Source of the DNA: an uncultured Verrucomicrobiota bacterium
GTDB taxonomy: Bacteria; Verrucomicrobiota; Verrucomicrobiia; Opitutales; Opitutaceae
Direction of reading: 5' to 3'
NCBI GenBank assembly: GCA_903960515.1
Contig: CAJCBL010000281.1
Span: forward strand, 1-40,860
Length of the DNA: 40,860 nucleotides
In this document: positions 6,643-29,035 of the stretch, piece after piece
Numbering within the stretch: position 1 is the first letter of the stretch
Layout: every line of letters starts with the position of its first letter
The notes under the pieces: generated by a model
Seen by the model: the letters and a program-made list of their open reading frames with translations, nothing else
Database searches by the model: none
Told to the model about the DNA's origin: nothing
Made by a program: the position numbers and the translations under genes

Positions 6643-6674
6643 GCGCGCCGACAACCGACAAAGGACTCCGTACT

Positions 6675-7772: not shown

Positions 7773-7792
7773 CCGGCGTCTCTGATCCATCG

Positions 7793-7819: not shown

Positions 7820-7904
7820 CACTTGCCGCCTCCCGCCACGGTTCGCTCCCGCGGGAACCCGTTCAGCGCCCATGCCTGACCGGTGCCACACCGCGCGAAT
7901 CCCC

Positions 7905-8753: not shown

Positions 8754-8754
8754 C

Positions 8755-9600: not shown

Positions 9601-9612
9601 CCGCCCCACCCC

Positions 9613-10266
9613 ATGCCATCGAAGAAACAGCTCTCCTGCTCCGAGTGCGGCCTGCTCAACTGCTACCGCCAGGACCAGCGTTTCCCCGCCTTCTGCTTGA
9701 CCGAGGGCGCCGACAAGGCCGCCGTCGCCCAATCCGCCGCACGCTATCGCGGCCGCAGCCTCGACGGCCGCATCGCCCGCGCCGCCGCCGAGGTCGAAGG
9801 TACCTACTACGGCAAGCTCACGCGCGTCGAGGAAACGATCGCTTTCGCCAATCGACTCGGGGCGAAGCGTATCGGGATCGCCACCTGCATCGGCCTCATC
9901 GAGGAGACTCGGATCTTCGTGAAGATCCTCAAGGCCCACGGGCTCACGCCGTTCACCGTCCTCTGCAAGGTCGGCTCGGTCGACAAGTGCGACGCCGGCA
10001 TCCCCGAATCGCTCAAGATCAAGAAGGGCTCGTTCGAAGCCATCTGCAACCCGGTGCTCCAGGCGCGCCTGCTCAACGCCCAGAAGACCGACCTCAACGT
10101 CATCGTCGGCCTTTGCGTAGGGCACGACGCGCTCTTCAACAAACACTCCGACGCTCCGGTCACCACGCTGATCACAAAAGACCGCGTAACCGGCCACAAC
10201 CCGGCCGCCCCGCTCTACACGAGCGGCTTCTACTACAAGCGGCTCTTCAACGGGGAGAAACTCTGA
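9613..10266 (+). CDS. DUF1847 cysteine-rich protein
   Basis: 217 residues, matching the DUF1847 (putative metal-binding) family. The N-terminus MPSKKQLSCSECGLLNCYRQ has Cys9, Cys12 and Cys17, with a further Cys28. Later cysteines lie in GIATCIGLIEE, VLCKVGS, DKCDAG, ICNPVLQA and VGLCVGHDALF, and it ends in a region containing TGHNPAAPLYTSGFYYKRLF. The pattern resembles a redox or metal-cluster protein found mainly in anaerobes. No biochemical role is established that I can name. It lies 12 bp after permease 1 and 1 bp before the CoA-ligase gene, in the same transcription unit as the ferredoxin-dependent enzymes and the CooS homologue. Confidence 0.85.
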   Translation: MPSKKQLSCSECGLLNCYRQDQRFPAFCLTEGADKAAVAQSAARYRGRSLDGRIARAAAEVEGTYYGKLTRVEETIAFANRLGAKRIGIATCIGLIEETRIFVKILKAHGLTPFTVLCKVGSVDKCDAGIPESLKIKKGSFEAICNPVLQARLLNAQKTDLNVIVGLCVGHDALFNKHSDAPVTTLITKDRVTGHNPAAPLYTSGFYYKRLFNGEKL

Positions 10267-10267
10267 C

Positions 10268-11611
10268 ATGTCCACGCGCACGTATTGGGAAGAGGAAATC
10301 GAAACGCTGCCCCGGCCGCAGTTGGAGCAGTTGCAGCTCCGGCGCCTGCAGGAGCACCTAGCCTTCGCGTACCAGCGATCGCTTTACTACCGGCAGTCCT
10401 TCGACGCCGCGGGGGTGAAGCCCGCCGATCTTCGCCACCTCGCCGACCTGGCGCGCTTCCCGTTCACCGACAAGAAAGTCGAGCGCGACCGCCAGTTGGC
10501 CGTGCCCGACCTGGGCGACATGCTCGCGGTGCCCGAGGAGGAGATTGTCTTCGTATCCGCCTCCAGCGGCTCCACGGGCGTGCCCACGCTGAGCCCGTTC
10601 ACGAAAAAGGATTTCGACGACTTCCAGAACGCCGAGTCGCGCCTCTTCTGGGCGGCCGGAATGCGTCCGAAAGATCGCTACATTCACGCGCTCAACTTCT
10701 CGCTCTTTGTCGGCGGCCCCGACGTCATCGGAGCGCAAAACCTCGGCGCACTCTGTATCTGGGGCGGCACCATGCCCTCCGACCGGCTGCTTTACATCAT
10801 GAAGCAGTTCAAGCCCACGATCACCTGGACCACGCCCTCCTACGCCTGGCACCTGGGCGAGACCGCGCTCAAGCAGGGCATCGATCCGCGCCGCGACCTC
10901 CATATCCGCAAAATCATCGTAGCCGGTGAACCCGGCGGCTCGATACCCGCCACCCGCAAGGCGATCGAAGAGATCTGGGGCGCCGATCTCTACGACTTCT
11001 ACGGCCTCTCCGACATCTTCGGCGCCTGCGCCGGCATGTGCGCCCAGAAGGACGGCCTGCACCTGGTCGAGGACCAGATCCTCCTCGAAGTCCTCGATCC
11101 CCAAACACAGCAGCCCGTCCCCGACGGCACTCCCGGTGAGATGGTTCTCACTACTCTGCTCAAGGCCGCCCGCCCCATGATCCGCTTCCGCACCGGCGAC
11201 ATCGTCACGCGCCTGCCCGGCCTCTGCGCCTGCGGTCGCACCCACGCACGCTTCGTGGTGCAGGGCCGCATCGACGACATGTTCATCATCTCCGGGGTAA
11301 ACGTGTTCCCGAGCGACGTGGAGTTCGTGGTACGCGGCATCCCCGCGCTCACCGGCGAATACCGCATCACCGTCTACGAGAAGGACCACCTCACTCGCTT
11401 CGACGTCGAGGTCGAGGCCACCGCCGACTTCGCCCATGAGGGCGAGTCCCTCGCCAGGCAGGTCACCAACCAGATCAAGCTCCGCGCCGGCGTGAAGCCT
11501 TCCAACGTGAAGATCCTCCCCGACGCCACGCTCCCCCGCGCCACCCACAAGGCCAAACGCCTCGTCGACCTGCGCGGCGCCGCCGAAACCGCCCGCGCCT
11601 CCGGTATCTGA
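10268..11611 (+). CDS. Phenylacetate-CoA-ligase-like (PaaK family) AMP-forming ligase
   Basis: 447 residues, as in PaaK (about 430-440). Motifs in order: the N-terminal helix bundle ending FPFTDKK, P-loop SASSGSTGVPTLSPFTKKDF, IIVAGEPGGSIPATRKAIEE, YDFYGLSDIFGACAGMCAQK, IRFRTGDIVTRL and CACGRTHARFVVQGRIDDM followed by FIISGVNVFPSDVEFV. The C-terminal lid carries KAKRLVDLR. It activates a carboxylic acid as an acyl-adenylate and then as a CoA thioester. PaaK proper uses phenylacetate, but relatives act on other aryl or short acids, so the substrate is open. Beside a 2-oxoacid:ferredoxin oxidoreductase and an aminotransferase it could supply the same acyl-CoA from the free acid. Confidence 0.9.
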   Translation: MSTRTYWEEEIETLPRPQLEQLQLRRLQEHLAFAYQRSLYYRQSFDAAGVKPADLRHLADLARFPFTDKKVERDRQLAVPDLGDMLAVPEEEIVFVSASSGSTGVPTLSPFTKKDFDDFQNAESRLFWAAGMRPKDRYIHALNFSLFVGGPDVIGAQNLGALCIWGGTMPSDRLLYIMKQFKPTITWTTPSYAWHLGETALKQGIDPRRDLHIRKIIVAGEPGGSIPATRKAIEEIWGADLYDFYGLSDIFGACAGMCAQKDGLHLVEDQILLEVLDPQTQQPVPDGTPGEMVLTTLLKAARPMIRFRTGDIVTRLPGLCACGRTHARFVVQGRIDDMFIISGVNVFPSDVEFVVRGIPALTGEYRITVYEKDHLTRFDVEVEATADFAHEGESLARQVTNQIKLRAGVKPSNVKILPDATLPRATHKAKRLVDLRGAAETARASGI

Positions 11612-11675
11612 ATTCAAACCCGCCGCCCACATCCACCCCGCACTGCGCTCCCGCCCGTGGTCCGTCCCTCTTCCG

Positions 11676-11734
11676 ATCCGTCCTCCGTGCCCTCCTCCCC
11701 CTCTGAGCCCTCTGTGACCTAATCCGTCCTCCGT
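11676..11734 (+). repeat. Direct repeat in CT-rich leader of the aminotransferase gene
   Basis: The 13-mer ATCCGTCCTCCGT occurs at 11676-11688 and again at 11722-11734, inside a C/T-rich tract (about 11650-11747) of CCTCCGTGC and CCCTCTGTGAC-like units. The tract fills the gap up to the aminotransferase ATG. It resembles in style the CTTGG tract before yicC, although the units differ. Confidence 0.55.
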
Positions 11735-11747
11735 CTCTCCGCCCTCC

Positions 11748-12920
11748 ATGCCCCAGACCAGTCTTCGTACCCGCAATTTCGGTGAATCCGTCATCCGCCG
11801 GATGACTCGCGTCGCCAATGCCCATGGCGCCGTCAACTTGTCGCAAGGTTTTCCCGACTTCGACCCGCCGCCCGAGGTGATCGCCGCCGCCGAGCGCGCC
11901 GCCCGCCATGGGCCTCACCAATATGCGGTGACCTGGGGCGCCCAGAATTTCCGCACGGCCCTCGCGCTCAAACAGTCGCGCTTCATGGGCCTGCCCATCG
12001 ATCCCGACCGCCACCTGGTCGTCACCTGCGGCAGCACCGAGGCGATGATGGTGGCGATGATGACCGCCTGCAATCCGGGCGACAAGGTCATCGTCTTCTC
12101 CCCCTTCTACGAGAACTACGTTGCGGATACTATTCTCACCGGCGCCGAGCCGATCTACGTGCCGCTGCGCCCGCCCACCTTCGGCTTCGATCCCGACGAA
12201 CTCCGCCGCGCCTTCGAGCAGAAGCCGAAGGCGCTCATCCTCTGCAACCCGTCGAACCCCTCCGGCAAGGTCTTCACCCGCGAGGAGCTGCTCTTCATCG
12301 CCGAGCTCGCCGAGAAACACGACACCTTCGTGATCACCGACGAAGTGTACGAACACATCCTCTACGCGCCGAACCAGCACACCTACTTCGCGTCGCTGCC
12401 GGGCATGTTCGAGCGCACCATCTCGTGCAGTTCGCTCTCCAAGACCTACTCGATCACCGGCTGGCGGCTGGGCTACGTGATCGCCCCGCCGGCCATCATC
12501 GACACCGCGCGCAAGGTCCACGACTTCCTTACGGTGGGCGCCGCCGCTCCCTTGCAGGAGGCCGCCGTAGCCGGGCTGGAGTTGCCCGACACCTACTACC
12601 TCGACCTGCAGGCCAAATACACCGAGATGCGCGCCGTGCTCCTGCGGCACCTCGACGCCGCCGGCCTCACCTACACCAAGCCCGACGGCGCCTACTACGT
12701 GATGGTCGACATCTCTGAGTTCGGCTGGAAGAGCGATGTCGCCTTCGCCGAATGGCTGACCCGCGAGGTGGGCGTGGCCGGAGTGCCTGGCTCCAGCTTC
12801 TTCCGCGAACCGGTCCACCACCTCATCCGCTTCCATTTCGCAAAACGTATCGAGACACTCAACGCCGCCGGCGAGCGCCTGCTCAAGCTGCGCGAGAAGG
12901 CCAGGGGGCAGCATGATTGA
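11748..12920 (+). CDS. PLP aminotransferase class I/II (methionine/aromatic type)
   Basis: 390 residues. Fold-type I aminotransferase motifs are clear: [52 protein letters not shown] and the PLP-lysine block [17 protein letters not shown], with IRFHFAKR near the end supplying the carboxylate-binding Arg. The closest family text is that of YbdL methionine aminotransferase and kynurenine/aromatic aminotransferases. It converts an amino acid to the 2-oxo acid. The next four genes oxidise 2-oxo acids to acyl-CoA, and it overlaps the first of them by 8 bp, so its product is very probably their substrate. Confidence 0.9.
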
Positions 12921-13464
12921 GGTGCGCTGGCACGGGCGCGGCGGCCAGGGCGGTTTCACCGCCGCCCGGTTGCTCGGGCTCGCCGCGGCGCTCTTCGAAG
13001 GGCGCCACGCGCTGGCCTTCCCGTCGTTCGGCCCCGAACGCCGCGGCGCACCGGTGTTTGGCTTCACCCGGATCGACGATCGCAAAATCACCGACCGCAG
13101 CGCCGTCACCGCCTGCGACTTCGTTGTGGTGATCGACGAAACCCTCGCCGGCCCGCGCATCGCCGACGGTCTGCGCCCAGCCGGCAAGCTCATCCTCAAT
13201 ACCGCCGAGCCGCAGAAATACGCCGCCGTGGCCGCCGGCCACGAGATCGTCGCCCTCGACGCCACCGCGCTGGCCCGCCGTATCCTCGGCCGCCCGATCG
13301 CCAATACCGCGATGCTGGGCGCGCTGCTGGCCGCCACTGGTATCGTGCGGCTGGATTCTGCGGAGAAGGGCATCGCCCACGAGCTCAAGCCCAAGATCGC
13401 CCAGAAGAACATAGAGCTCTTGCGCGAGTCGTTCGCCGCCGTAGCCGGGAGGGTTGCCGCATGA
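12913..13464 (+). CDS. porG: 2-oxoacid:ferredoxin oxidoreductase, gamma subunit
   Basis: 183 residues. The N-terminus [20 protein letters not shown] is the hallmark of the gamma (PorG/VorC/KorC) CoA-binding subunit, followed by FPSFGPERRGAPV and AVTACDFVVVIDETL, as in pyruvate- and 2-ketoisovalerate-type enzymes. It overlaps the aminotransferase by 8 bp and the delta subunit by 4 bp, showing tight coupling. The subunit order gamma-delta-alpha-beta is that of four-subunit POR/VOR. Confidence 0.93.
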   Translation: MIEVRWHGRGGQGGFTAARLLGLAAALFEGRHALAFPSFGPERRGAPVFGFTRIDDRKITDRSAVTACDFVVVIDETLAGPRIADGLRPAGKLILNTAEPQKYAAVAAGHEIVALDATALARRILGRPIANTAMLGALLAATGIVRLDSAEKGIAHELKPKIAQKNIELLRESFAAVAGRVAA

Positions 13465-13766
13465 GCCGCCCGAAGGTCCAGCCGCCGTTCGCTCCGAAGC
13501 ATCTCGCCGATTTCCCTACGGGCACCTGCGATGTAGCCGCCCACCTGGTCGAGACGCTCGCGAGCTGGCGCACCGCCACTCCTCGCGTCGACGTAAACCA
13601 GTGCACCGGCTGCCTGCGCTGCTACCTCGTTTGCCCCGAGGGAACGGTCTCCAAGATCGAGAACAACCGGGTATCCATCGACTACGACTTCTGCAAAGGC
13701 TGCGGCATCTGCTCCCACGAGTGCAAATTCGACGCGATCACGATGATCGACGGAGGCACCGCATGA
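13461..13766 (+). CDS. porD: 2-oxoacid:ferredoxin oxidoreductase, delta subunit (2x[4Fe-4S] ferredoxin)
   Basis: 101 residues. Two clusters are evident, CTGCLRCYLVCP and CKGCGICSHEC, preceded by about 50 residues typical of PorD (APKHLADFPTGTC). It passes electrons from the TPP site to external ferredoxin. ATG overlaps the gamma stop, and its own stop overlaps the alpha ATG (ATGA). Confidence 0.95.
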   Translation: MSRPKVQPPFAPKHLADFPTGTCDVAAHLVETLASWRTATPRVDVNQCTGCLRCYLVCPEGTVSKIENNRVSIDYDFCKGCGICSHECKFDAITMIDGGTA

Positions 13767-14974
13767 GCGCCGCCGCCACCAAGGTCTTCGTCTCCGGCAA
13801 CGACGCCATCGCCCTGGGCGTGCGCCTCGCTCGCCCGCATGTGATTTCCGCCTACCCGATCACCCCGCAGACCACCGCCGTCGAGCGGCTCTCCGAGATG
13901 GTCGAGGACGGCTCGTTGAAGTGCGAATACCTCAATGTCGAGTCCGAGCATTCCGCGCTCTCCGCGGCGATGGGTGCCAGCGCCGTGGGCGCACGCACCT
14001 TCACCGCCACCTCGTCGCAGGGGCTGCTCTACATGGCGGAGTGCCTCCACTACGCCAGCGGCGGGCGCTTCCCGGTGGTGATGATGAACGCCAACCGCGC
14101 GCTCGCCCTGCCCTGGAACATCTACAACGACCAGCGCGACTCGCTCTCGCTGCTGGATTGCGGCTGGATACAGATCTATGTCGAGGACGCCCAGGAGGCG
14201 CTCGACATGATCCTGCAGGCCTACGCAGTGGCCGAGCACCCGAGAGTGCTCACCCCGACGATGGTCAACATCGACGGCTTTGTCATTACCCACACCTACG
14301 AGCTGGTCGAAGTGCCCGCGCAGGCCGACGTCGACGCCTTCCTCCCACCGTTCCAGACGACGAACAAGATGTCGTTCGAGGTGCCCACCAACATGGGCTT
14401 CACCGCCACCCCGGCGCACTACACCGAGTTCAAATACCAACAACACCGCGCCTTGCTCGACGCCGCCGCCGTCGCCACCGAGGTCGATCGCACCTTCGGC
14501 CAGCGCTTCGGCCGCGCCTATGGCGGACTGCTCGAAGGCTACCGCGCCGCCGACGCCGAGTTGCTCCTCATCACACTAGGCAGCGTCACCGGCACCGCGC
14601 GCATTGTGGTCGACCAGCTTCGCGCCAACGGCCGCAAGGTCGGGCTCGTGAAGCTGCGCTACCTGCGCCCCTTCCCTGCGAAGGAACTCGCCGCGCTCAC
14701 CGCCCGCGCCGCCGCCGTCGGCGTATTGGAGAAGAACATCTCCCTGGGCTATGAGGGCACCGTCTTCACCAACGTGGTCTCCGCCCTCGCCCAGGCCGGC
14801 CAGAACGCCCCGGCGCTCAACTTCGTAGCCGGTCTCGGGGGACGGGACATCGCCAAGACAGATATCGCCGCGATGTTCGACCGCCTCGCCGCCGCCGCCC
14901 TGCAACCGCCACCCCAGCGGGTGTTCTTCATCAACCTTGGAGTCGCCACCGATGAGCCCGATCAAACCGCCTAA
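13763..14974 (+). CDS. porA: 2-oxoacid:ferredoxin oxidoreductase, alpha subunit
   Basis: 403 residues. AYPITPQTTAVERLSEMVED, then YLNVESEHSALSAAMGASAV and TATSSQGLLYMAECLHYASG, form the pyrimidine-binding (PYR) domain. The C-terminal transketolase-like domain has LRPFPAKEL and GVLEKNISLGYEG. The catalytic assembly makes acyl-CoA, CO2 and reduced ferredoxin from a 2-oxo acid. A good Shine-Dalgarno (GGAGG) lies 7 bases before the ATG. PorA-type text favours pyruvate or branched/aromatic 2-oxo acids, but sequence alone does not fix the substrate. Confidence 0.94.
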   Translation: MSAAATKVFVSGNDAIALGVRLARPHVISAYPITPQTTAVERLSEMVEDGSLKCEYLNVESEHSALSAAMGASAVGARTFTATSSQGLLYMAECLHYASGGRFPVVMMNANRALALPWNIYNDQRDSLSLLDCGWIQIYVEDAQEALDMILQAYAVAEHPRVLTPTMVNIDGFVITHTYELVEVPAQADVDAFLPPFQTTNKMSFEVPTNMGFTATPAHYTEFKYQQHRALLDAAAVATEVDRTFGQRFGRAYGGLLEGYRAADAELLLITLGSVTGTARIVVDQLRANGRKVGLVKLRYLRPFPAKELAALTARAAAVGVLEKNISLGYEGTVFTNVVSALAQAGQNAPALNFVAGLGGRDIAKTDIAAMFDRLAAAALQPPPQRVFFINLGVATDEPDQTA

Positions 14975-15899
14975 CGCCAAGACGCTCTCCGAGCGGGAGT
15001 TCTTCTTCGGCCACAAGGGCTGCGCCGGCTGCGGCGGCAGCCTCGCGCTGCGGCTGGCACTGAAAGTTCTCGGCGAGCGCACCTTCACCGTCGTTCCCGC
15101 CGGCTGCATGTCGGCGGTGGGCTTTGTGTATCCTCAGCTCGCGTTCGGCACCAACGCCATCATCTCCACCTTCCCCGGCACCGCCTCGATGCTCGCCGGA
15201 GTCGCCGCCGGGGCGCGCGCGCTCGGCCTGAAGGATTTCCATACCGTGGGTTTCGCCGGCGACGGCGGCACGGCCGACATCGGCCTGCAGGCGCTCTCCG
15301 GTGCGATCGACCGCCACGACCGCATCCTCTACATCTGCTACGACAACGAGGCCTACATGAATACCGGAGTGCAGAAGAGCGGCCTCACGCCCTTCGGTGC
15401 CCGCACCACCACCACACCGGCCGGCCAGCATATCCGCGGCTCCATCACCCAGAAGAAGAACATGTTCGAAATCGTGGCGGCCCACGGTATCGACTACGCG
15501 GCCACGGCGAGCGTCGGCTACCCGCAGGATTTCATCAACAAGGTCGCCAAGGCCGCCACCGTCGAAGGCACCGCCTATATCCACGTCTTCGCACCCTGCC
15601 CCACCGGCTGGGGGTGCGAGACCGACCTCTCCATCGAACTCGCCAAAGAGGCGGTGGACAGCGGCCTGTGGTACCTCGCCGAATTCGAGAACGGCGAACA
15701 CCGCCTCAACCGCGACCCCCGCGAGTTCACGCCCGTGCGCTCCTACCTCGAGAAGCAGGCCCGCTTCGCCCACCTGCGCGACGAGGACTTCGCCGCCATT
15801 GAGCGCACCCGCGACGCCCAATGGGCCCGCATGCGCCGCCAGTGGGCGCGCCCGACCACGACCGCCCCCTCGGCAGCCACCCCCGCCACCGCAGGCTGA
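14952..15899 (+). CDS. porB: 2-oxoacid:ferredoxin oxidoreductase, beta subunit (TPP-binding)
   Basis: 315 residues. Cluster cysteines begin in GHKGCAGCGGSLALRLAL. The TPP/Mg site is FAGDGGTADIGLQALSGAI followed by ICYDNEAYMNTGVQKSG, and there is a conserved APCPTGW near the end. The ATG at 14952 overlaps the alpha gene by 23 bp. A TTG at 14937 is possible but less likely. The C-terminal 15 residues are Ala/Thr/Pro-rich and variable. It completes the four-subunit enzyme, which is oxygen-sensitive in most organisms, so the host probably lives at least partly without oxygen. Confidence 0.94.
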   Translation: MSPIKPPNAKTLSEREFFFGHKGCAGCGGSLALRLALKVLGERTFTVVPAGCMSAVGFVYPQLAFGTNAIISTFPGTASMLAGVAAGARALGLKDFHTVGFAGDGGTADIGLQALSGAIDRHDRILYICYDNEAYMNTGVQKSGLTPFGARTTTTPAGQHIRGSITQKKNMFEIVAAHGIDYAATASVGYPQDFINKVAKAATVEGTAYIHVFAPCPTGWGCETDLSIELAKEAVDSGLWYLAEFENGEHRLNRDPREFTPVRSYLEKQARFAHLRDEDFAAIERTRDAQWARMRRQWARPTTTAPSAATPATAG

Positions 15900-15910
15900 A
15901 TCCCCCCGCC

Positions 15911-17977
15911 ATGCTGCATCCGCTCTCCAGTCCTCGCCGCCGCCGCAGTACCGCGATCCTTGAGCGCGCCCGGTTTCATCACGACCCGGACCATCCCGAC
16001 CACACCCACCTGCCCGGGGAAGAGGACGCGTTCCACCCGATGCCTACGCTCACCGGCCTCGGAGCATACCGGAAGACGTTCCCCAAAAAAGCCGACGTAG
16101 TCGCCAAGACGCCCGATCCAGCGGTTCGCCAAATGCTCACGCACATGGCCGAGCAGGGCTGCGAGACATGCTTCGACCGCTTCGATGCCCAGACACCCCA
16201 ATGCGGTTTCGGCCTCGCGGGCACCTGCTGCCGTATCTGCAACATGGGACCGTGCAAGGTCACCGCGAAGAGTCCGCGCGGCGTGTGCGGCGCCGATGCC
16301 GACGTGATCGTCGCACGCAATCTCCTACGCTGGGTCGCCTCCGGCGTGGCCTCCCACGGCGCCCGCGGCCGCGAGGTGATGCTCGCGCTCAAGTGGGCCT
16401 CCGAGGGCAAACTCGACCTGCCCATCCTCGGCCACGAGAAGGTCCTCAAGGTAGCGCAGGCGCTCAAACTCGACGCCGCTGGCAAAGACGTGAAGCAGCT
16501 CGCCGGGGAAATCGCCGACGCCCTCCTCGCCGATCTCTCCCGCACCATTCCCGAAGGCCATCGCACTCTCCACGCCCTCGCGCCGGCCGAGCGTATCGAG
16601 ACCTGGCGCAAGCTCGGTATCCTGCCTGTCGGTGCCTACCATGAGGTCTTCGAGGCGCTCCACCGCACGGGTACGGGCACTGATGGCGACTGGGAGAACC
16701 TCATGCTGCAAATGCTGCGCTGCGGCCTCGCCTTCGCGTGGACGAGCGTCGTGGGCTCCGCCATCGCGATGGATTGCCTCTACGGCCTGCCCAAGCGCAG
16801 CCGCATCGAGACCAACCTCGGCGTCCTGGAAGATGGCTACGTAAGCCTCGCCCTTCACGGCCACTCGCCCGTCATGGTCGGCTCGATAGTCGAGGCGAGC
16901 CGCCGCGCCGAGTTCGTCGGCCAGGCCGAGGCCGCCGGCGCCAAGGGTATCCGCCTCTATGGCATCTGCTGCTCCGGCCTCTCCGCGCTCTACCGCATGG
17001 GCGGTGTGCATCCATTGACCAACGCCATGGGCGCCGAGCTCGCGCTGGGTACCGGCGCGCTCGACCTCTGGGTGGCCGACGTCCAGGACGTCTATCCATC
17101 GATCATGGACGTGGCGAAGTGCTTCGGTACCGAGGTCGTCACCACCAGCGACTCCGGCCGTCTGCCCGGGGCCACCCATATCGCCTTCGACCACGAGCAC
17201 TCGAACCTCTCGGAGGTGCGCCAACTGGGCGAGCGCATCGTAGGCACCGCCATCCGCCGCCACGGGCAGCGCGCCGGCCGCCCGCGCTTCGTGCCCGACA
17301 CCAAGATCGAGGCCGAGGTTGGTTTCTCCATCGAAAACGTCATCGCGCATTTCGGCTCCGCCGCCGCGATCGCCGAGCACGTGAAGGCCGGCCGTATCCG
17401 CGGCATCGTCAACCTCGTGGGCTGCAGCAACCCGAAGGTGCTCTACGAGCGGGCCGTGCTCGACGTAGCCGAAGCGCTGATCGCCCAGGATGTGCTCCTG
17501 CTCACCAACGGCTGCGCCTCCTTCCCCTTGATGAAGCTGGGCCTCTGCCGGGCCGAAGCGTTGCAACAGTCCGGGCCCGGCCTGCGCACCGTGCTGGGCG
17601 GATTCAAGGAGCCGTTACCGCCCGTCTGGCACATGGGCGAATGCCTCGACAACGCCCGCGCCTCCGGCCTGTTCCGCACTCTGGCCGACGCGCTCGGCCA
17701 GCCGATGCGCGCCCTGCCCTTCGCATTCTCCAGCCCCGAGTGGTCCAACGAGAAGGGCGTGGGCGCGGCGCTCAGTTTCCGTCTCCTCGGTTTGAATTCC
17801 TACCACTGTGTAGCCGCGCCCGTATTCGGCTCGGAAAACGTGCAGCGCTACCTCGCCCGCGACACCCACGCGATCCTCGGCTCCGTGATGATCGTCGATC
17901 CCGACCCGGCCGTGCTCGCAGCCCGCATCATCCACGATCTGAAGGTCCGCCGCCGTCGCCTAGGCTGGGCCGAATGA
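15911..17977 (+). CDS. cooS: CooS-type Ni-Fe carbon monoxide dehydrogenase homologue with altered C-cluster
   Basis: 688 residues, about 50 longer than CooS because of an Arg/His-rich N-terminus. Cysteines for the D- and B-clusters are intact: Cys98, Cys106, Cys107, Cys110, Cys115 and Cys126, with the same spacing as C39/C47 and C48/C51/C56/C70 of Carboxydothermus CODH-II. Of the C-cluster ligands the HGH histidines (316/318), GICC (353/354), VGCSNPK (Cys505), NGCAS (Cys535) and HMGEC (Cys578) are kept, as is the acid-base lysine (Lys615 in SPEWSNEKG). The ligand equal to Cys333 is replaced by Asp393 in VADVQDVYPS, where CooS has DVQC. CCTGNE has become CCSGLS. The fold is surely that of CODH, but CO/CO2 activity is doubtful. 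No CooC, CooF, CooJ or acetyl-CoA synthase genes are nearby. Confidence 0.9.
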   Translation: MLHPLSSPRRRRSTAILERARFHHDPDHPDHTHLPGEEDAFHPMPTLTGLGAYRKTFPKKADVVAKTPDPAVRQMLTHMAEQGCETCFDRFDAQTPQCGFGLAGTCCRICNMGPCKVTAKSPRGVCGADADVIVARNLLRWVASGVASHGARGREVMLALKWASEGKLDLPILGHEKVLKVAQALKLDAAGKDVKQLAGEIADALLADLSRTIPEGHRTLHALAPAERIETWRKLGILPVGAYHEVFEALHRTGTGTDGDWENLMLQMLRCGLAFAWTSVVGSAIAMDCLYGLPKRSRIETNLGVLEDGYVSLALHGHSPVMVGSIVEASRRAEFVGQAEAAGAKGIRLYGICCSGLSALYRMGGVHPLTNAMGAELALGTGALDLWVADVQDVYPSIMDVAKCFGTEVVTTSDSGRLPGATHIAFDHEHSNLSEVRQLGERIVGTAIRRHGQRAGRPRFVPDTKIEAEVGFSIENVIAHFGSAAAIAEHVKAGRIRGIVNLVGCSNPKVLYERAVLDVAEALIAQDVLLLTNGCASFPLMKLGLCRAEALQQSGPGLRTVLGGFKEPLPPVWHMGECLDNARASGLFRTLADALGQPMRALPFAFSSPEWSNEKGVGAALSFRLLGLNSYHCVAAPVFGSENVQRYLARDTHAILGSVMIVDPDPAVLAARIIHDLKVRRRRLGWAE

Positions 17978-17996: not shown

Positions 17997-18980
17997 ATGA
18001 AAACCTCCGCTCTACTCCGCCGCCTCAGCCTGCTCGCCGCGGCCCTCGTAGCCTTCGCGCTTCCGGCCTCGGCCGCCGATACCGCCAAGCCCGTACTCAA
18101 AATCGGCCACCTGCCGATCACCGACCACCTCACCGTAATCGCGCAGGGCCGCGAGCAGTTCAAGGAGTTCGACCTCCAGTTGGTGAAGTTCTCCTCGTGG
18201 GCCGAACTCGCCGAGGCGCTCAAGGCCGGCGCCGTCGATGGTGCCTACGCACTCACGCCGATCAGCATCAGCCTGCGCCAGAAGGGCGTGCCCATCCACG
18301 CCGTCTTGCTCGGCCACCGCAACGGCTCGGTGCTCACCGTGCGCAATTCCCCCGACATCACCTCCGTAGCCGATCTCAAGGGACGCACCATCGCGATTCC
18401 CAATCGCCTCTCCACGCACAACATCCTCCTGCGAAAACTGCTCCTCGCCCAGCAGATCGATCCCGAGAAGGACGTGAAGATTATCGAGCTCGCCCCGCCC
18501 GAGATGGTCAACGCGCTCTCCACCAGCCGTATCGACGCATTCATCGTTGCAGAACCCTTCGGCGCCCAAGCCGAACTCCAGAAGGTGGGCAAGGTGCTGC
18601 TCCTCTCCAAGGACATCTGGCCCGACCACATTTGCTGCGTACTCAACTTCCGCGAGGAGGCGATCACCCAGCATCCCGCCGCCGTGCAGGAGTTCGTCGC
18701 CGCCCTCGTCCGCACCGGCGCGTTCATCGAGTCGCACCCGCACGAGGCCGCCGTTCTCTCCAAGCAGTTCCTGGGGCAGAAACCGGAGGTCATCGAGCAC
18801 GTGCTCACCACGCCCAAGGGACGCGTATCCTTCGACAACCTCATCCCCACCCTCGCCGACTTCACCTCCACCCAGGACAACCTCCTCAAGCTCGGTATCC
18901 TGAAAGAGGGCATCGATCTCACTCAGTATCTCGACGGCCGCTTCGCCGCCCAAGCGGTCTCCGCGACCTCCACAAAATAG
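17997..18980 (+). CDS. ABC importer 2: periplasmic binding protein (NMT1/SsuA-like)
   Basis: 327 residues. A signal peptide with hydrophobic core LLAAALVAFALPASAA precedes LKIGHLPITDHLTVIAQGRE, FSSWAELAEALKAGAVDGAY, SVADLKGRTIAIPNRLSTHN and STSRIDAFIVAEPFGAQ. The last block is the NrtA/CmpA/ThiY-like second-lobe pattern. It carries a double cysteine in PDHICCVLNFREEA, echoing GHPCCRL of binding protein 1. Start is 19 bp after the CooS homologue, so both are probably co-transcribed. The ligand is unknown, and bicarbonate, nitrate-like or sulfonate ligands are all seen in the family. Confidence 0.88.
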   Translation: MKTSALLRRLSLLAAALVAFALPASAADTAKPVLKIGHLPITDHLTVIAQGREQFKEFDLQLVKFSSWAELAEALKAGAVDGAYALTPISISLRQKGVPIHAVLLGHRNGSVLTVRNSPDITSVADLKGRTIAIPNRLSTHNILLRKLLLAQQIDPEKDVKIIELAPPEMVNALSTSRIDAFIVAEPFGAQAELQKVGKVLLLSKDIWPDHICCVLNFREEAITQHPAAVQEFVAALVRTGAFIESHPHEAAVLSKQFLGQKPEVIEHVLTTPKGRVSFDNLIPTLADFTSTQDNLLKLGILKEGIDLTQYLDGRFAAQAVSATSTK

Positions 18981-18984
18981 GCAC

Positions 18985-19752
18985 ATGTCGCGTCCTCGGA
19001 CCACCGGATTTGCCCTCGGCCTCGTCGGCTTGGCTGTCCTGCTCGGCTTCTGGGTACTGCTGGCCGGTCACTACACCGTCGAGCAGATGCCCGGGCCGCT
19101 GCAGGTGGCCACCGCCTGGCTGGAGCTGCTGCGCGAGGGCGGCCTGCTCACGCACATCCGTATCAGTCTGCTGCGTTTCGGCTCGGCCTATGCGCTCGCC
19201 CTCCTCGCGGGACTTCCGCTGGGCCTGCTCCTGGGCTGGTCTACGCGAGGACTGAAGGCGCTCAACCCGGTGATCCAGGTGCTGCGTCCGATCTCGCCCA
19301 TCGCATGGTTTCCGCTCGCGGTGCTCTGGTTCGGCGTGGGCAACGCACCCGCGGTATTCATCATCTTCCTCTCGGCGCTATTCCCCATCCTCCTCGCTAC
19401 GGTCAGCGGCGTGCGCGACATCCCGCCGGGCTACCTGCGCGTAGCCGCCAACTTCGGCACGCCGCGCCTCCAGCTCTTCCGCACGGTCATCCTCCCCGCC
19501 GCGTTCCCCACCATCGTCGTCGGGTTGCGCATCGCCGTCGGCACCGCGTGGATTCACCTCGTGGCCGGCGAGATGCTCGGCGCCCAGACGGGCTTGGGCT
19601 TCCTCATTGTCGACGCGCGCAACTTCCTGCGCACCGACCAGATCCTCGCCGGCATGATCACCATCGGGCTGCTGGGCCTCGCGATCGACCGCCTCATGAG
19701 TCTCGGTGAACTCCAGCTTCGCCGTATCTGGGGCACGGAGGCCACCGCATGA
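18985..19752 (+). CDS. ABC importer 2: permease (SsuC/NrtB-like)
   Basis: 255 residues with about six membrane helices. The first is FALGLVGLAVLLGFWVLLAG, and the central block is LRPISPIAWFPLAVLWFGVG, typical of SsuC/TauC/NrtB permeases. The EAA loop VAANFGTPRLQLFRTVILPA lies near the middle. It begins 4 bp after the binding-protein stop and overlaps the ATPase gene by 4 bp (ATGA). Confidence 0.93.
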   Translation: MSRPRTTGFALGLVGLAVLLGFWVLLAGHYTVEQMPGPLQVATAWLELLREGGLLTHIRISLLRFGSAYALALLAGLPLGLLLGWSTRGLKALNPVIQVLRPISPIAWFPLAVLWFGVGNAPAVFIIFLSALFPILLATVSGVRDIPPGYLRVAANFGTPRLQLFRTVILPAAFPTIVVGLRIAVGTAWIHLVAGEMLGAQTGLGFLIVDARNFLRTDQILAGMITIGLLGLAIDRLMSLGELQLRRIWGTEATA

Positions 19753-20597
19753 CCCCGATCCCGCAGTCCATCCTCACGGCCGCCGCCGTCTCCATCGACC
19801 CACTCGCACCGCCGCCCCGCATCGACGTGCGCGGGGCCGGAGTGACCTTCGCCCTCGCGAACGCCCCGGCGCGCACGGTCCTCTCATCCATCGACCTCCA
19901 GGTGCGCAACGGCGAGTTTGTCAGTCTGCTCGGCCCCAGCGGCTGCGGCAAAACCACGCTGATGAATCTCATGGCCGGCTTCCTCCGGCCCACGGTCGGC
20001 ACCGTCGCGATCGACGGCTCGCCAGTCACCGGTCCCGACCCGCGCCGCGTCGTGATCTTCCAGGACTACGGCCTGTTCCCGTGGCGCACCGTGCTGGGCA
20101 ACGTCCTCTTCGCGCTCGAATCGCGCGGCGAACGCGGCCCCGCCGCCCGCGACAGGGCCCGCCACTACCTCCAGCTCGTCGGCCTCACCGACGCCGCCGA
20201 CCAGCACCCGCATCAGCTCTCCGGTGGCATGAAGCAACGCGTCGCCATCGCCCGAGCACTCTCGGTAGCGCCGGAGGTGCTGTTCATGGACGAGCCCTTC
20301 GGCGCGCTCGACACCTTCACGCGTTTCCACCTCCAGGATCTCCTCCTCGAACTCTGGGAGCGATCGCGCATCACCACCGTGCTCGTCACCCACGATGTAG
20401 ACGAGGCGCTCTACCTGAGCGACCGCGTCGTCGTCCTCGGCGAACGCCCTGGCCGCATCGTCGAGACCATCGACGTCGCCCTCGAACGCCCCCGCGATCG
20501 CCGCGCCCCCGAACTCCATCGCCTGCGCGACCGCCTCCTCGAAGAACTCCGCCTGGCCGGCCGCTGGGCCCGCCAGAAACCCGAATACGACATCTGA
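19749..20597 (+). CDS. ABC importer 2: ATP-binding protein (SsuB/TauB-like)
   Basis: 282 residues. Walker A LLGPSGCGKTTLMNLMAG, Q-loop FQDYGLFPWRTVLGN, signature LSGGMKQRVAIARAL, Walker B VLFMDEPFGALD and H-loop LVTHDVDEALYLSDRV are all present. The C-terminus ends RWARQKPEYDI, close to the RWDRKKPEYEI of importer 3's ATPase, so these two subunits are close paralogues while importer 1's is more distant. Confidence 0.94.
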   Translation: MTPIPQSILTAAAVSIDPLAPPPRIDVRGAGVTFALANAPARTVLSSIDLQVRNGEFVSLLGPSGCGKTTLMNLMAGFLRPTVGTVAIDGSPVTGPDPRRVVIFQDYGLFPWRTVLGNVLFALESRGERGPAARDRARHYLQLVGLTDAADQHPHQLSGGMKQRVAIARALSVAPEVLFMDEPFGALDTFTRFHLQDLLLELWERSRITTVLVTHDVDEALYLSDRVVVLGERPGRIVETIDVALERPRDRRAPELHRLRDRLLEELRLAGRWARQKPEYDI

Positions 20598-20657: not shown

Positions 20658-21188
20658 ATGAGTACCTCCAGCGTTCCGCCCATCGAGCCCATCAACCGCG
20701 ACGGCCTTCTCGCCCTCTCCGCCAAGGGCAAGGCCAACCCCACCGCTGTGCGTACCCTGAAGGTGCGCACTGTCCTCGAAAAGCGATTCCGCCACCTCAA
20801 CTATGTGCGCGACCTGCCCGCTCACGTAATCGACGAACCGCCGGGCCTGCTGGGCGACGACACCGCCCCCAACCCCTCCGAAGCGGTCCTCGCCGCCCTC
20901 GGCTCCTGCCTGTCGGTGGGCATCCAGGCCAACGCCGTGTTGCAGCAGATCCGCCTCACCAAGGTAGAACTGGAACTTGAAGCGGACATCAACATCACCG
21001 CCGTCTGGGGCACCGGAGACCTCACCGAGGACAAGCTCGTCGGGTTCAGCGCGATACGGGTAAGTGCCCGAGTCGAAGGCGATGCACCGCGGGAAGCGCT
21101 CGACGCTCTGGTCGCCCACGCCAACCGCTGGTCCCCAGTAGCCAATACCCTGCGACTTCCGGTGCCGGTCTCCGTCACCCCCGCCTAA
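20658..21188 (+). CDS. OsmC family protein
   Basis: 176 residues. The OsmC/Ohr fold is shown by VIDEPPGLLGDDTAPNPSEA followed by VLAALGSCLSVGIQANAV, with the peroxidatic-type Cys84. The usual second cysteine is replaced by Ser159 in HANRWSPVANTLR. This subgroup therefore cannot use the normal Cys-Cys peroxidase cycle and may bind or transfer thiols or persulfides. It lies 60 bp after importer 2 and 15 bp before a flavoprotein gene in the sulfur cluster, which fits a redox or sulfur-handling job more than peroxide defence. The function is inferred from context only. Confidence 0.88.
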   Translation: MSTSSVPPIEPINRDGLLALSAKGKANPTAVRTLKVRTVLEKRFRHLNYVRDLPAHVIDEPPGLLGDDTAPNPSEAVLAALGSCLSVGIQANAVLQQIRLTKVELELEADINITAVWGTGDLTEDKLVGFSAIRVSARVEGDAPREALDALVAHANRWSPVANTLRLPVPVSVTPA

Positions 21189-21203: not shown

Positions 21204-22331
21204 ATGACCAGCGCTTCCACCACCACAGCCGGGACACCGAGCGTCGCCGCCCAGGGCGACGCGGCGCTCGCCCGCCTCGTGCGAGAGCAACTGCGCCCTC
21301 GGGTGGTCGCCATCGATCGGCAAGGCCAATACCCGGCCGAGTTTCTTCGCCACTTCGGCGCCCTGGGCGGATTTCTTCCCCCGGGCCCCGGCGGGATCGC
21401 CTCGGCCATTGAGTCCACGGCCCAGGTTGCGCAGGTCTGCGGCTCGACCGCATTCCTCACCTGGTGCCAGAACGCTTGTCTCTGGTATTTGCTAAACACG
21501 CCCAACCAAGCCCTGCGCGACACCGTGTTGCCCGAGCTGGCAACGGGTATTCGCATGGGAGCCACAGCGCTGTCCAACCCGGTGAAGGCGTTCTCCGGTA
21601 TTGAGGCCTTCAAGCTCTCCGCCACCCGAGTGCAGGGCGGCTACCGGGTAAACGGCTCCCTGCCGTGGGTCTCCAACCTCGGCCGCGACCACGCGTTCCC
21701 CTCGATCTTCAAGGTCGGCGACTCCACCGCTATGGCGCTCTTCGATTGCGCCCAGCCCGGTGTCGCCCAGCCGCCCACGGCTCCTTTCATCGCGCTGGAG
21801 GGCACCGCCACCTTCGCACTTCGGTTCAAAGACGTATTCGTTCCGGAAAGCGCCGTGCTGGCCGCACCCGCGGCGCCCTTCGTTCAGCAGGTCCAACCGG
21901 GCTTCGTTCTCCTGCAAACCGGAATCGGGCTGGGGCTGCTGCGCGGGGCCATCGAAGACATGACTGCGGCCGACCGCACCCATCGCCTGGCAAACCAGCA
22001 CCTGCCCGACCGGCCCGCCTTCTTCGCCGAGCAACTCGCGCTGTTCGAAACGCGGATCGCCTCTCTCGCTCAGCTGCCCACTACCATCGCCGTTGAGCGG
22101 CTCCGCGACATTCTCCAACTCCGCCTCGATCTCGCCGAGCTCGTGCTCCGGGCCACGATGTCCGCGGTGCTGCATGCCGGAGCGGCTGGTTTCATCGCCA
22201 CCGCCGCCCCGCAGCGACGCCACCGCGAGGCGCTCTTCTTCGCCATCCTCACCCCGGCAACCAAACACCTGAGGCTGCTGCTCGCGGCCGGTCCATCCGC
22301 CACCGTGGGCGAGCCACAGCATCCCGTCTGA
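21204..22331 (+). CDS. Acyl-CoA-dehydrogenase-like flavoprotein
   Basis: 375 residues. Overall ACAD architecture is visible: N-terminal helices (LPELATGIRMGATALSNPVK), a middle beta-domain (LSATRVQGGYRVNGSLPWVS then NLGRDHAFPSIF) and C-terminal helices (LQTGIGLGLLRGAI). Two landmarks are missing. The FAD-contacting GSD after the first strand reads FSGIEAF, and no YEGT-like catalytic glutamate is seen before the end, which is also short. In these respects it resembles the monooxygenase-like branch (SfnB/DszC type) used in sulfur-source use, but that assignment is uncertain. It could oxidise a CoA thioester or attack a C-S bond with flavin. It sits between OsmC and the CoA-transferase genes. 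Confidence 0.75.
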   Translation: MTSASTTTAGTPSVAAQGDAALARLVREQLRPRVVAIDRQGQYPAEFLRHFGALGGFLPPGPGGIASAIESTAQVAQVCGSTAFLTWCQNACLWYLLNTPNQALRDTVLPELATGIRMGATALSNPVKAFSGIEAFKLSATRVQGGYRVNGSLPWVSNLGRDHAFPSIFKVGDSTAMALFDCAQPGVAQPPTAPFIALEGTATFALRFKDVFVPESAVLAAPAAPFVQQVQPGFVLLQTGIGLGLLRGAIEDMTAADRTHRLANQHLPDRPAFFAEQLALFETRIASLAQLPTTIAVERLRDILQLRLDLAELVLRATMSAVLHAGAAGFIATAAPQRRHREALFFAILTPATKHLRLLLAAGPSATVGEPQHPV

Positions 22332-22338
22332 AACCGCC

Positions 22339-23355
22339 ATGTCTCCATCCGAACCATGCGCTGCGCCGCCGCGCCGCCACAAACTCCTCAGCCTCGCCAA
22401 TGCCGTGGCCCGCTACACCTTCGACGGCATGCAGTACGCCCCCGGCGGGGCACTACCGGTGGGCGCGGAGTCGGTCGCCTTCGGTCGCGAGATGATCCGT
22501 CAGGGCCGCCGCAATCTCCATGTCGTGGCTACGTGCGCCTCGCAACAGCTCAACCTCCTGTGCGCCGCCGGCGCGGTGGCAAAAGCGGAGTGCGGTTTCT
22601 CCGGCCTTGAGGTCTACGGCTTCGCCAACGGGCTGCGCCGCGCCGTTGAGTCGGGCCAGACCCTGCTCGAGGACTACTCGAACTTGGCGATGACGCTGCG
22701 CTTCCTGGGCGGGGCGCTCAACTGGCCCTTCGTCCCCACCAACACCGCCATCGGCTCCGACATCCAGTGGCACCACGCCGCCGAACCGGCCGAATACCCC
22801 AGCCGTACCAAGATCCCGGAGATCGTTGACCCGTTCACCGGCCGCGTCGTGGGCGCGCTGCAACCGCTACGACCCGACCTCGCCGCCATCCACGTCACCT
22901 TCTCCGATCCGCTGGGCAACGCGATTATGCTCGGCACGGAGTGGAGCCGCTTCGAACTTTCCCGCGCCGCCAAGAAGGTGGTGCTGGTTGCCGACCACAT
23001 CGTGTCCACCGACTGCATGCGGCAGTATCCCAACCTCGTGCGCATCCCGGACATCGTCGTAGATGCGGTGGTCCACACCCCCTTCGCCGCCTGGCCGCAG
23101 TGCTCCCCCGGGCTCTACGACTCCGACGAGGCCCACATGAAACTGTTGAACGACGCGCTGCGCACCGCCGAGGGCTACAACGAATACCGGCGCCAGTTCA
23201 TCGACCCCGTTGCCACGCCGGCCGATCTGCTCCGGATCATCGGCGTGGAGAACGCCGAGCGCCTCACCAAGGGGCCCACCAGCTTCCTCGCCGATCCCTT
23301 CCGGCGGTGGCTGCTCTCGGATACCACCATCAACGCACTGCTGGAGGCCAACTGA
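22339..23355 (+). CDS. CoA-transferase family I, alpha subunit (GctA/IpdA-like)
   Basis: 338 residues. The family I alpha pattern is recognisable: TFDGMQYAPGGALPVGAESV followed by AFGREMIRQGR, NLHVVATCASQQLNLLCAAG and IHVTFSDPLGNAIMLG, ending with the long C-terminal extension found in glutaconate CoA-transferase A and the IpdA/CatI-like proteins. With the beta subunit, whose gene starts 1 bp after the stop, it should move CoA between acids or act on a cyclic or acyl-CoA intermediate. Together with acetyl-CoA synthetase it could recharge an acid with CoA. Confidence 0.85.
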   Translation: MSPSEPCAAPPRRHKLLSLANAVARYTFDGMQYAPGGALPVGAESVAFGREMIRQGRRNLHVVATCASQQLNLLCAAGAVAKAECGFSGLEVYGFANGLRRAVESGQTLLEDYSNLAMTLRFLGGALNWPFVPTNTAIGSDIQWHHAAEPAEYPSRTKIPEIVDPFTGRVVGALQPLRPDLAAIHVTFSDPLGNAIMLGTEWSRFELSRAAKKVVLVADHIVSTDCMRQYPNLVRIPDIVVDAVVHTPFAAWPQCSPGLYDSDEAHMKLLNDALRTAEGYNEYRRQFIDPVATPADLLRIIGVENAERLTKGPTSFLADPFRRWLLSDTTINALLEAN

Positions 23356-23356
23356 A

Positions 23357-24142
23357 ATGTCCGACTTCTCTCGACAGGAAATGATGGCCATCGCCACCGG
23401 CCGCGAAATCCGCGACGGCGAGCTCGCGATCTTCGGAGTGGGGCTAAGCATGCTCGCCGGATACTTCGCCCAGGCTTACCACGCGCCCAACGTGCGCTCG
23501 CTCACCGAGGGCGGGGTCTACGGCGCCACACCGGTGGGCGGCCTGCCCTGGGGCATCGAATGCAACCGCATCTCGGCCAACGCCACCTCGTTCACCAACG
23601 CCCTCGATGCCCTCGGTTTCCTCGTCGGCTCCGGGCGTTGCGATGTGGGCATCATCGGCGCGGCGCAGGTCGACAAGTTCGGAAACGTGAACACTACCGG
23701 CATCTGGAACTCTCCCGTGGGCCCGGGTACCGGGGCGCCCGTTACACGTTTGTCCGGTGCCGGCGGGGCCAACGACATCGCATCCTCCTGCGGCCGCTTT
23801 GTCATCATGGCCACCCACGAGAAGAAGCGCTTCGTGGAGCGCGTCGACTACGTCAGTTCCCCCGGATACCTCACCGGACCCGGAGCGCGCCAGCGCTGCG
23901 GCCTCATAGGCGGCGGGCCCTCGGCGATCATCACCACCCTCGGCATCCTCCGACCGAATCCCGACAGCCTCGAATTCGAGCTGGATTCGTATTTCGAATT
24001 CTCCGGCGTGGACGAGATCCGCGCCGCCACCGGCTGGCACCTGGGCGTGCGCCCGGATGTGCATGCCGTCCCGGCGCCCTCCGAAGCCGAGCTGGAGGCG
24101 CTGCGCCGCGTAGACACCACCGGGATGCTCCGCCGCAAGTAA
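23357..24142 (+). CDS. CoA-transferase family I, beta subunit (GctB/IpdB-like)
   Basis: 261 residues. VRSLTEGGVYGATP carries the Glu-Gly-Gly segment where family I transferases hold the catalytic glutamate. GSGRCDVGIIGAAQVDKFGN then NTTGIW, RLSGAGGANDIASSCGRFV and IGGGPSAIITTLGILRP are typical GctB/IpdB blocks. The starting ATG follows the alpha stop by 1 bp. Substrate is unknown. The pair is followed 16 bp later by an enoyl-CoA-hydratase-like gene, which places it in a CoA-thioester pathway. Confidence 0.85.
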   Translation: MSDFSRQEMMAIATGREIRDGELAIFGVGLSMLAGYFAQAYHAPNVRSLTEGGVYGATPVGGLPWGIECNRISANATSFTNALDALGFLVGSGRCDVGIIGAAQVDKFGNVNTTGIWNSPVGPGTGAPVTRLSGAGGANDIASSCGRFVIMATHEKKRFVERVDYVSSPGYLTGPGARQRCGLIGGGPSAIITTLGILRPNPDSLEFELDSYFEFSGVDEIRAATGWHLGVRPDVHAVPAPSEAELEALRRVDTTGMLRRK

Positions 24143-24158
24143 CCTTATCATAACTACC

Positions 24159-24956: not shown

Positions 24957-24982
24957 GTTTTAACCAACCAACTACAACCGCC

Positions 24983-28954: not shown

Positions 28955-28969
28955 TTGGCCCACCACTGC

Positions 28970-28998: not shown

Positions 28999-29035
28999 TA
29001 TAGGCCCAGATTCAATCCCTACCAATTCAATCTCC

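Follow-up and report, generated by a model that had tools for sequence, protein, structure and literature searches.

Clade B CODHs and the locus studied

It has been reported that the carbon monoxide dehydrogenase (CODH) homologues of clade B, which comprise groups B-1, B-2 and B-3, carry Asp (in B-1 also Glu) at the second cysteine of the C-cluster and keep the acid-base residues and a type II D-cluster (Inoue et al. 2019, PMC6344411, Table 2). In the parts of that paper drawn on here, B-1 proteins have a His-rich N-terminal extension with 4 to 48 His, every clade B group is linked with NitT/TauT transporters, and metal import is proposed for the transporter. The portion of Bohm and Land used here (PMC13056359) reports that 64% of clade B operons include genes for an ATP-binding cassette (ABC) transporter and that maturases are hardly ever present; it states that the function of the clade is not deducible, raises degenerated function as a possibility and awaits a first biochemical characterisation. 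Here we describe a CooS homologue encoded at 15911-17977 (+ strand) of a 40,860-nucleotide stretch, called the window, from contig CAJCBL010000281.1 of an uncultured Verrucomicrobiota bacterium. On balance, we favour the view that this protein, the window CooS, is a clade B CODH homologue that no longer acts as a CO dehydrogenase and that forms, together with the adjoining ABC transporter, a sulfur-acquisition module, the counterpart of an acyl-CoA-dehydrogenase-fold flavoprotein (ACAD).

The protein type is already classified. No link between clade B CODHs and sulfur assimilation was found in our searches of openly licensed PMC papers, and as far as these reach, that link and the exchange of partner enzymes behind one transporter family, both described below, are new.

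Classification of the window CooS

The open reading frame (ORF) codes for 688 amino acids plus a stop; the frame extends open upstream as far as an ATG at 15821, and the precise start is uncertain. The product scored 487.8 bits against TIGR01702, just above the cut-off of 478, and 473.7 bits against Pfam Prismane, and it fell far below the cut-off of the hybrid cluster protein (HCP) model TIGR01703 (32.7 versus 360.8 bits). The best match among solved CODHs was 6t7j (436 bits), followed by 6elq (426), the CODH-II entries (369-381) and CooS-V (307). When an AlphaFold2 model built from a 34-row alignment (A1; mean pLDDT 85.6, pTM 0.87) was compared with CooS-type CODHs, about 590-632 residues could be superposed at 1.7-2.1 Å with Z scores of 46-56, the best being 6t7j (55.8); CooS-V gave 49.5 and class III HCP 28.1.

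An earlier sequence-only reading of the stretch had placed Asp393 at the position of Cys333 of CODH-II. This was borne out by phmmer (7err, tag offset 20), and MAFFT concurred, pairing Cys354, Cys505, Cys535 and Cys578 with Cys295, Cys446, Cys476 and Cys526, and His149, His316 and Lys615 with His93, His261 and Lys563. The ligand spacings that it had given (30, 37 and 112 residues) came out the same on recomputation, and the alignment agreed with it on the loss of GNE after the CC pair (TGNE in CODH-II is SGLS here) and on the retention of the D- and B-cluster cysteines and the catalytic Lys. The six D/B-cluster cysteines (98, 106, 107, 110, 115 and 126) were invariant across 34 aligned relatives; C98-x7-C106-C107 corresponds to a type II D-cluster (C-x7-13-CC), and the acid-base residues H149 and K615 are kept. 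Seven His lie within residues 1-56, a count that depends on a start codon that is unproven. With D393 at Cys333, the protein departs from the complete C-cluster ligand set of functional Ni-CODHs, and with Cys354 retained, it also lacks the Glu at Cys295 that marks CooS-V (clade D-1).

For comparison, a clade B set of 84 rows or loci was assembled from the window, the best 80 of 173 relatives from GTDB genomes and three from the phylum; L111 and L112, located on the same contig as L031, were omitted. The other CODHs comprised 21 of 25 rows (L006-L009 failed the motif filter) and 3 PDB rows, 24 together. When C-cluster residues were mapped on the CooS phylogeny, a check that the sequence-only reading had proposed, the 84 Asp rows opposed the 24 others across a branch with 100% SH-aLRT support in a quick tree with long branches. 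The 84 rows include genera published as clade B (Ruminococcus flavefaciens, Caldicoprobacter, Ruminiclostridium and Methanosarcina), the published reference sequences themselves being outside the tree. The window CooS resembles B-1 in its His, Cys1, Asp/Glu at Cys2, Cys3-5, acid-base His and Lys, type II D-cluster, His-rich N terminus and adjoining NitT/TauT transporter, and no difference was found in the defining features tested. Its locus goes beyond the published B-1 in the Verrucomicrobiota host and in its island, which also holds an ACAD and an encapsulin of the sulfur-storage type. By its residues, the protein is thus a B-1-like member of clade B, and the Asp substitution, which had been presented as unusual, is ordinary for this clade, since the change of a C-cluster Cys to Asp defines groups B-1 to B-3. 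A sequencing error or lone mutation at residue 393 was also considered and rejected, Asp being present in 84 of 84 rows including the window.

The nearest gene in the tree, 84% identical, belongs to a Verrucomicrobia metagenome-assembled genome (MAG) of the same genus. The gene was found in its own genome and in one of two same-genus genomes; a search of 57 related genomes gave only two other matches, both weak (E values of 8e-5 and 1.6e-4), and among 387 genomes of the phylum, full-length clade-B-like scores were obtained in its own and three more. Since the gene occurs in its own and one same-genus genome and not in the other relatives searched, horizontal gain is suggested.

Active-site residues across the relatives

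In CODH-II numbering, the three D/B-cluster cysteines, H93, H261, C295, D333, C446, C476, C526 and K563 are present in all 84 clade B rows. All 24 other CODHs have Cys at 333, and 23 of them share the remaining pattern; the 24th has Asn at 93. This row (L010, a CooS-V relative and the same gene as in L121) was omitted from the list of fixed differences, which therefore compares clade B (residue in at least 90% of rows) with 23 other CODHs (at least 80%). Different residues were found at 31 positions, including D219F and I567A (83/84 each), S525E and A564G (84/84 each), G568A, E299S, T296S and M327W. Several of these positions, such as those of Asp219, Ile567 and Glu299 in CODH-II, probably belong to the acid-base network and to the pocket above the nickel. 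Judged from the alignment, on which all statements about the pocket rest, the clade B site is rebuilt and not merely one cysteine short. The altered active-site metal centre predicted by the sequence-only reading is supported in this sense, the pocket differing at many positions beyond Cys333.

The window CooS thus shares with CODH-II, CODH-IV and the Thermococcus CODH the fold, the B-/D-cluster cysteines, the catalytic Lys and His and five of the six C-cluster ligands, whereas clade B differs from them in C333D, D219F, I567A, S525E and E299S, in a transporter of its own and in CooC, which adjoins only 5 of the 84 genes. CO metabolism is unlikely for the window CooS. That it might be a decayed CODH, functionless or retained as a regulator, would agree with the degenerated function mentioned by Bohm and Land (PMC13056359, in the part used), but ligands invariant in 84 of 84 rows, nearly invariant pocket residues and occurrence in many phyla make this very improbable.

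A redox or nitrosative-stress enzyme of the hybrid cluster kind, acting on hydroxylamine or NO as for CooS-V, belongs to the same superfamily. According to the sections of PMC9311411 used here, in CooS-V (clade D, C295E) the loss of one ligand turns the C-cluster into an Fe/S/O cluster, and the window CooS resembles it in having a carboxylate in place of one C-cluster Cys on a CODH scaffold. However, the ligand replaced is another one (Cys295 in CooS-V, Cys333 here), CooS-V is more distant in sequence than 6t7j (307 versus 436 bits) and the recurrent neighbours of clade B genes are sulfur-assimilation genes, so that we consider this explanation improbable.

Sulfur genes at clade B loci

The ORFs of the 84 loci were clustered, and neighbours were scored with profiles built from the clusters. 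A substrate-binding protein (SBP) was found in 81, a permease in 78 and an ATPase in 76 of the 84 loci. The recurrent neighbours were MetY/CGS-type pyridoxal phosphate (PLP) enzymes (30 loci), CysK (16), cysteine desulfurase (11), serine O-acetyltransferase (SAT), ThiF/MoeB-like proteins and C-S lyase/aminotransferase (8 each), family 2A encapsulin (7), and JAMM, MoaD-like and SirC-like proteins (5 each). Representatives of some clusters were compared with NCBIfam: the cut-offs were exceeded for the MetY, encapsulin, SufS, PatB, MoeB and LarE models, whereas SAT, SirC and, in L089, the CGS-type protein stayed below them. Names were assigned by eye to the RidA, MoaD/HcyS, JAMM/HcyD and CooC clusters.

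At least one sulfur-assimilation gene lay within 10 kb at 44 of the 84 loci, in 11 named phyla, and 43 loci remained with a stricter list lacking the aminotransferase/lyase, ThiF and MoaD profiles. The window MetY lies more than 10 kb away and is outside the 44 count. Such genes were present in only 2 of 20 regions around CooS genes of other clades from the same phylum (mean length 15.2 kb versus 16.2 kb for clade B). In a second control, an arbitrary region from each of 40 clade B genomes (the initial 16.25 kb of contig 3, 7 of the regions being shorter than 6 kb; 516,660 bases in total), there were none. Fisher tests gave p = 4e-4 and 2e-10, respectively, for loci that are related and not independent. 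CooC, in turn, adjoins 5 of 84 clade B genes versus 13 of 20 control CooS genes.

One of the two sulfur-positive control regions, L121, holds the CooS-V relative: at 9383-15998, a CODH nearest CooS-V (Cys at 295, Asn at His93) shares its strand with MoaD-, ThiF-, JAMM- and MetY-type genes, a possible sign that a clade D-like CODH, too, is connected with sulfur assimilation. In a Sporobacter termitidis MAG (L034:3286-15242), a clade B gene and its transporter occur with MetY/CGS-like and aminotransferase/PatB-like genes, and 8 kb beyond the clade B gene there is a second CODH homologue nearest CooS-V (13242-15242), which was left out of the counts. LarE-type sulfur transferase genes lie near clade B CooS genes in four Bacillota loci (L036, L042, L045 and L047; TIGR00268 above cut-off in L045).

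One transporter family with two partner enzymes

Downstream of the window CooS gene (+ strand), an SBP of the NitT/TauT type (17997-18980; TIGR01728, 167.3 bits, cut-off 163.5), an ABC permease (18985-19752; SaoP/ntrB/SsuC models, all below cut-offs) and an ABC ATPase (19749-20597; ntrCD 260.9 bits, below the cut-off of 291.8) are encoded, followed by an OsmC-like protein (20658-21188; Pfam OsmC) and an ACAD (21204-22331; Pfam Acyl-CoA_dh_N, no SfnB match). By TIGR01728, the SBP is predicted to be a sulfonate-binding protein of the SsuA type. Its near-invariant residues are P40, H107, S139, H141, E186, C213 and C214, and the CC motif (C213-C214) was found in 96% of 85 aligned SBP frames.

When the window SBP was searched against plasmids, 133 records were obtained, of which 11 were opened, chosen for organism variety among the top 30. 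All 11 SBPs carry CC. An annotated ACAD-family gene adjoins the transporter in Synechococcus elongatus pANL, in Thermomicrobium, Deinococcus and Variovorax, and on the Agrobacterium, Pseudonocardia, Pseudosulfitobacter and Acetobacter plasmids; with a profile made from these eight and the window, it was also detected in two unannotated Burkholderiaceae records. An ACAD was thus present in 10 of 10 opened plasmid loci without CooS, while the eleventh plasmid, Ruminococcus albus pRUMAL02, has the clade B-type CooS and no ACAD. Among the 84 clade B loci, only the window and L031 have an ACAD. Of 45 clade B genomes searched in full (E<=1e-15), 43 lack it, the two exceptions being the window's own and that of its same-genus relative. 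The window ACAD shares 40% identity with that of Pseudosulfitobacter, on whose plasmid OsmC and ACAD follow in the same order beside the transporter, and 31% with the S. elongatus pANL homologue. We take the hosts of the ten ACAD loci to be aerobic. In the loci opened, the transporter family hence pairs with a flavoprotein in these presumed aerobes and with CooS in mostly anaerobic hosts, and the window genus keeps both.

On the Acetobacter ascendens plasmid (L187:1647-8236), genes for OsmC, ACAD, rubredoxin, a nitrate/cyanate-type transporter and cyanase stand in one row, and one branch of the transporter family may thus have a substrate related to thiocyanate or cyanate. A DUF4242 gene precedes the ACAD gene in Synechococcus (L177:9411-9938), Thermomicrobium (L179:3458-3979) and Pseudonocardia (L185:2616-3152). 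A nickel-binding DUF4242 protein exists, and a metal role would fit.

Regulation and possible ligands of the transporter

On pANL, which we take to be the S. elongatus encapsulin plasmid, the transporter and ACAD genes have two cysK genes and the gene of an Rrf2 regulator in their vicinity. The window encapsulin belongs to the same family as that of S. elongatus. The latter and its cargo are induced on sulfate starvation, and their plasmid has many sulfur genes, according to the data of PMC8049743 considered here.

A structural model of the window SBP was nearest to 3un6 (Z 36.9, zinc bound), followed by nitrate/bicarbonate binders (Z 32-34) and SsuA/TauA (Z 27-29). We assume that 3un6 is the SBP of the putative TauABC operon of Staphylococcus aureus. 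This operon appears with the CymR regulon and is repressed 11- to 34-fold by sulfide in Table 2 of PMC5480029, the part used here. For a transporter that imports metal alone, a decrease under sulfide would be unexpected.

These data bear on two further explanations. In the first, the transporter imports Ni2+ or another metal, which the His-rich tail passes to the cluster, and the enzyme carries out CO/CO2 chemistry or a minor variant of it. This agrees with the zinc in the SBP relative, the conserved CC and His of the SBP, the His-rich N termini (48 of 84 clade B proteins have 4 or more His there), the CooC genes at 5 of 84 loci and the metal import proposed in PMC6344411 (in the parts cited above). 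It is unlikely, as the pocket and second-sphere residues are rebuilt, sulfur genes lie near 44 of 84 loci, loci without CooS combine this transporter family with a flavoprotein and the S. aureus operon goes down under sulfide. The second is a special case of the sulfur-acquisition module that we favour, in which thiocyanate or a carbonyl sulfide (COS)/thiocarbonate species is handled like CO2 on a CODH site. The CODH-like fold (Z 46-56 for CooS-type chains), an SBP model nearer to 3un6 and to nitrate/bicarbonate binders than to SsuA/TauA, and the cyanase and rubredoxin genes beside transporter and ACAD in one divergent relative (Acetobacter) speak for it; the changes of Ile567 to Ala and Ala564 to Gly, on the other hand, suggest a larger pocket. 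A small C1-sulfur compound is therefore a possible substrate, although we doubt that this narrower version is the correct one. Of the action on another small molecule that the sequence-only reading had envisaged, the sulfur setting proved real, but the comparative evidence points to sulfur release in general and speaks neither for nor against COS.

Proposed function in sulfur acquisition

For the favoured module, we infer sulfur acquisition by reductive chemistry as follows. The NitT/TauT-type transporter would bring in a small sulfur-bearing compound, candidates being a sulfonate, a thiol or thioether, or a C1-sulfur anion. The compound would bind in the enlarged pocket to a cluster, Ni-Fe-S or Fe-S(-O), that has Asp393 among its ligands, and low-potential electrons, probably from ferredoxin, would reach the site through the kept B and D clusters; in the window, ferredoxin is perhaps reduced by the adjacent 2-oxoacid oxidoreductase PorCDAB. 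The window CooS would then cleave the bond to sulfur at its remodelled Asp-containing C-cluster, and the sulfur, freed perhaps at the level of sulfide or thiol, would serve MetY, CysK or Hcy-type enzymes. It would thus be the O2-independent counterpart of the ACAD flavoenzyme that aerobes place by the same transporter family. The arrangement works like SsuABC-SsuD and TauABC-TauD, with a NitT/TauT transporter and one desulfurising enzyme, but the window CooS differs from SsuD and TauD in its CODH fold and in a substrate that is so far a candidate. The SsuD and TauD enzymes require O2.

As to the product, genome-wide searches were made for PF01077 (the sulfite/nitrite reductase family) and ACAD in 45 clade B genomes and for MetY in 40. 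PF01077 was unmatched in 14 of the 45, 8 of which have sulfur genes by CooS; they include the isolates Caldicoprobacter oshimai, Herbinix, Pelovirga, Campylobacter concisus and Ruminococcus flavefaciens, and in MAGs the absence may reflect incompleteness. In these 14 genomes, a product at the sulfide or thiol level is therefore favoured.

More broadly, and with less than even confidence, we suggest that clade B consists of O2-independent desulfurising metalloenzymes that replace an O2-dependent flavoenzyme behind the same family of sulfur-scavenging transporters. The sulfur link and the exchange of partners make the function of clade B a testable claim. If it is true, clade B would be a candidate for the way in which strict anaerobes, with no O2 at hand, draw sulfur from compounds that flavoenzymes open in aerobes, the CODH/HCP superfamily would gain a new reaction and many 'cooS' annotations would not imply CO metabolism.

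Several points weigh against a role in sulfur acquisition. No tested sulfur gene lies within 10 kb, as far as the DNA covered extends, at 40 of the 84 loci, among them 4 of 5 from Bacteroidota and 20 of 33 from Bacillota, and no sulfur riboswitch reached the gathering score in the 14 of 84 loci scanned. Two window relatives (L192 and L193) have a CC-type SBP and, in their short flanks, neither ACAD nor CooS. The 11 plasmid loci come from the top matches among 133 records, 8 of them supplied the ACAD profile, and the oxygen lifestyles of their hosts are presumed. Matches to the sulfur enzyme SfnB were weak for four of five plasmid ACADs scanned (30-46 bits, cut-off 431) and absent for the window ACAD, so that the function given to the ACAD is itself putative. 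The other 31 of the 45 clade B genomes, among them that of the window, do contain PF01077, and a sulfite-level product is possible there. The His-rich N termini, CooC at 5 loci and the zinc-bound SBP relative 3un6 keep metal import alive, and the buried site of CODHs suits small molecules.

Other genes of the window

The sequence-only reading had seen no partners of CO metabolism near the CooS gene and sulfur importers on both sides. The former holds for the immediate neighbours, but a ferredoxin-linked 2-oxoacid:ferredoxin oxidoreductase is encoded directly upstream (12913-15899, + strand; C 12913-13464, D 13461-13766, A 13763-14974, B 14937-15899). The latter agrees with the family models, which place NitT/TauT-type transporters at 6165-9600 and 17997-20597. 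The first of these, an SsuA-like system on the + strand, consists of an SBP ORF (6165-7772; 141.8 bits to TIGR01728, below the cut-off of 163.5), an ATPase (7872-8753) and a permease (8635-9600); a third ABC set lies at 34774-37497, its permease and ATPase being assigned by BLAST clustering alone. The transporter next to the CooS gene also resembles the Sec-assisted organometallic (SAO) system (PMC13188914, as far as used here) in that its SBP, permease and ATPase match the SaoX, SaoP and SaoA models. The SAO system was rejected as an identification, all three matches being below cut-off (80 of 300, 190 of 295 and 258 of 360 bits), and the matches listed for 24 scanned window proteins include no other SAO model.

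Between the first transporter and the oxidoreductase, on the + strand, are genes for a DUF1847 protein (9613-10266; PF08901, 208 bits), a PaaK-like acyl-CoA ligase (10268-11611; 306.9 bits, cut-off 646.3) and a PLP aminotransferase (11748-12920; family models below cut-offs). The DUF1847 protein, located between the transporter and the CoA ligase, has a Cys-rich start. The order CoA ligase, aminotransferase, PorCDAB also occurs upstream of CooS in Acetivibrio mesophilus (L049), where a MetY/CGS-type gene and a PatB lyase gene intervene.

Downstream, also on the + strand, are genes for a cysteine synthase (24965-26023; NF007989, 485 bits, cut-off 387), a family 2A encapsulin shell (26281-27240; NF041162, 457.6 bits, cut-off 380), its cargo cysteine desulfurase (27221-28954; NF041166, 767 bits, cut-off 800; SufS TIGR01979, 525.8 bits, cut-off 475.1), an SAT (29629-30561; TIGR01172, 146.9 of 210.65 bits, and EpsC, 142.1 of 150, both below cut-off) and, about 20 kb from the CooS gene, the O-acetylhomoserine sulfhydrylase MetY (38250-39548; TIGR01326, 593.2 bits, cut-off 495.1). 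The window also encodes a rhodanese. The genes for shell, cargo, rhodanese and SAT form an island of the sulfur-storage type (26281-30561) in this Verrucomicrobiota genome; the cargo has a long N-terminal extension, and the rhodanese a YgaP-like membrane segment. Next to the ACAD and the cysteine synthase, positions 22339-24956 encode an enoyl-CoA hydratase and a pair of CoA transferases; these genes could serve acyl-CoA breakdown of a sulfur-bearing acid.

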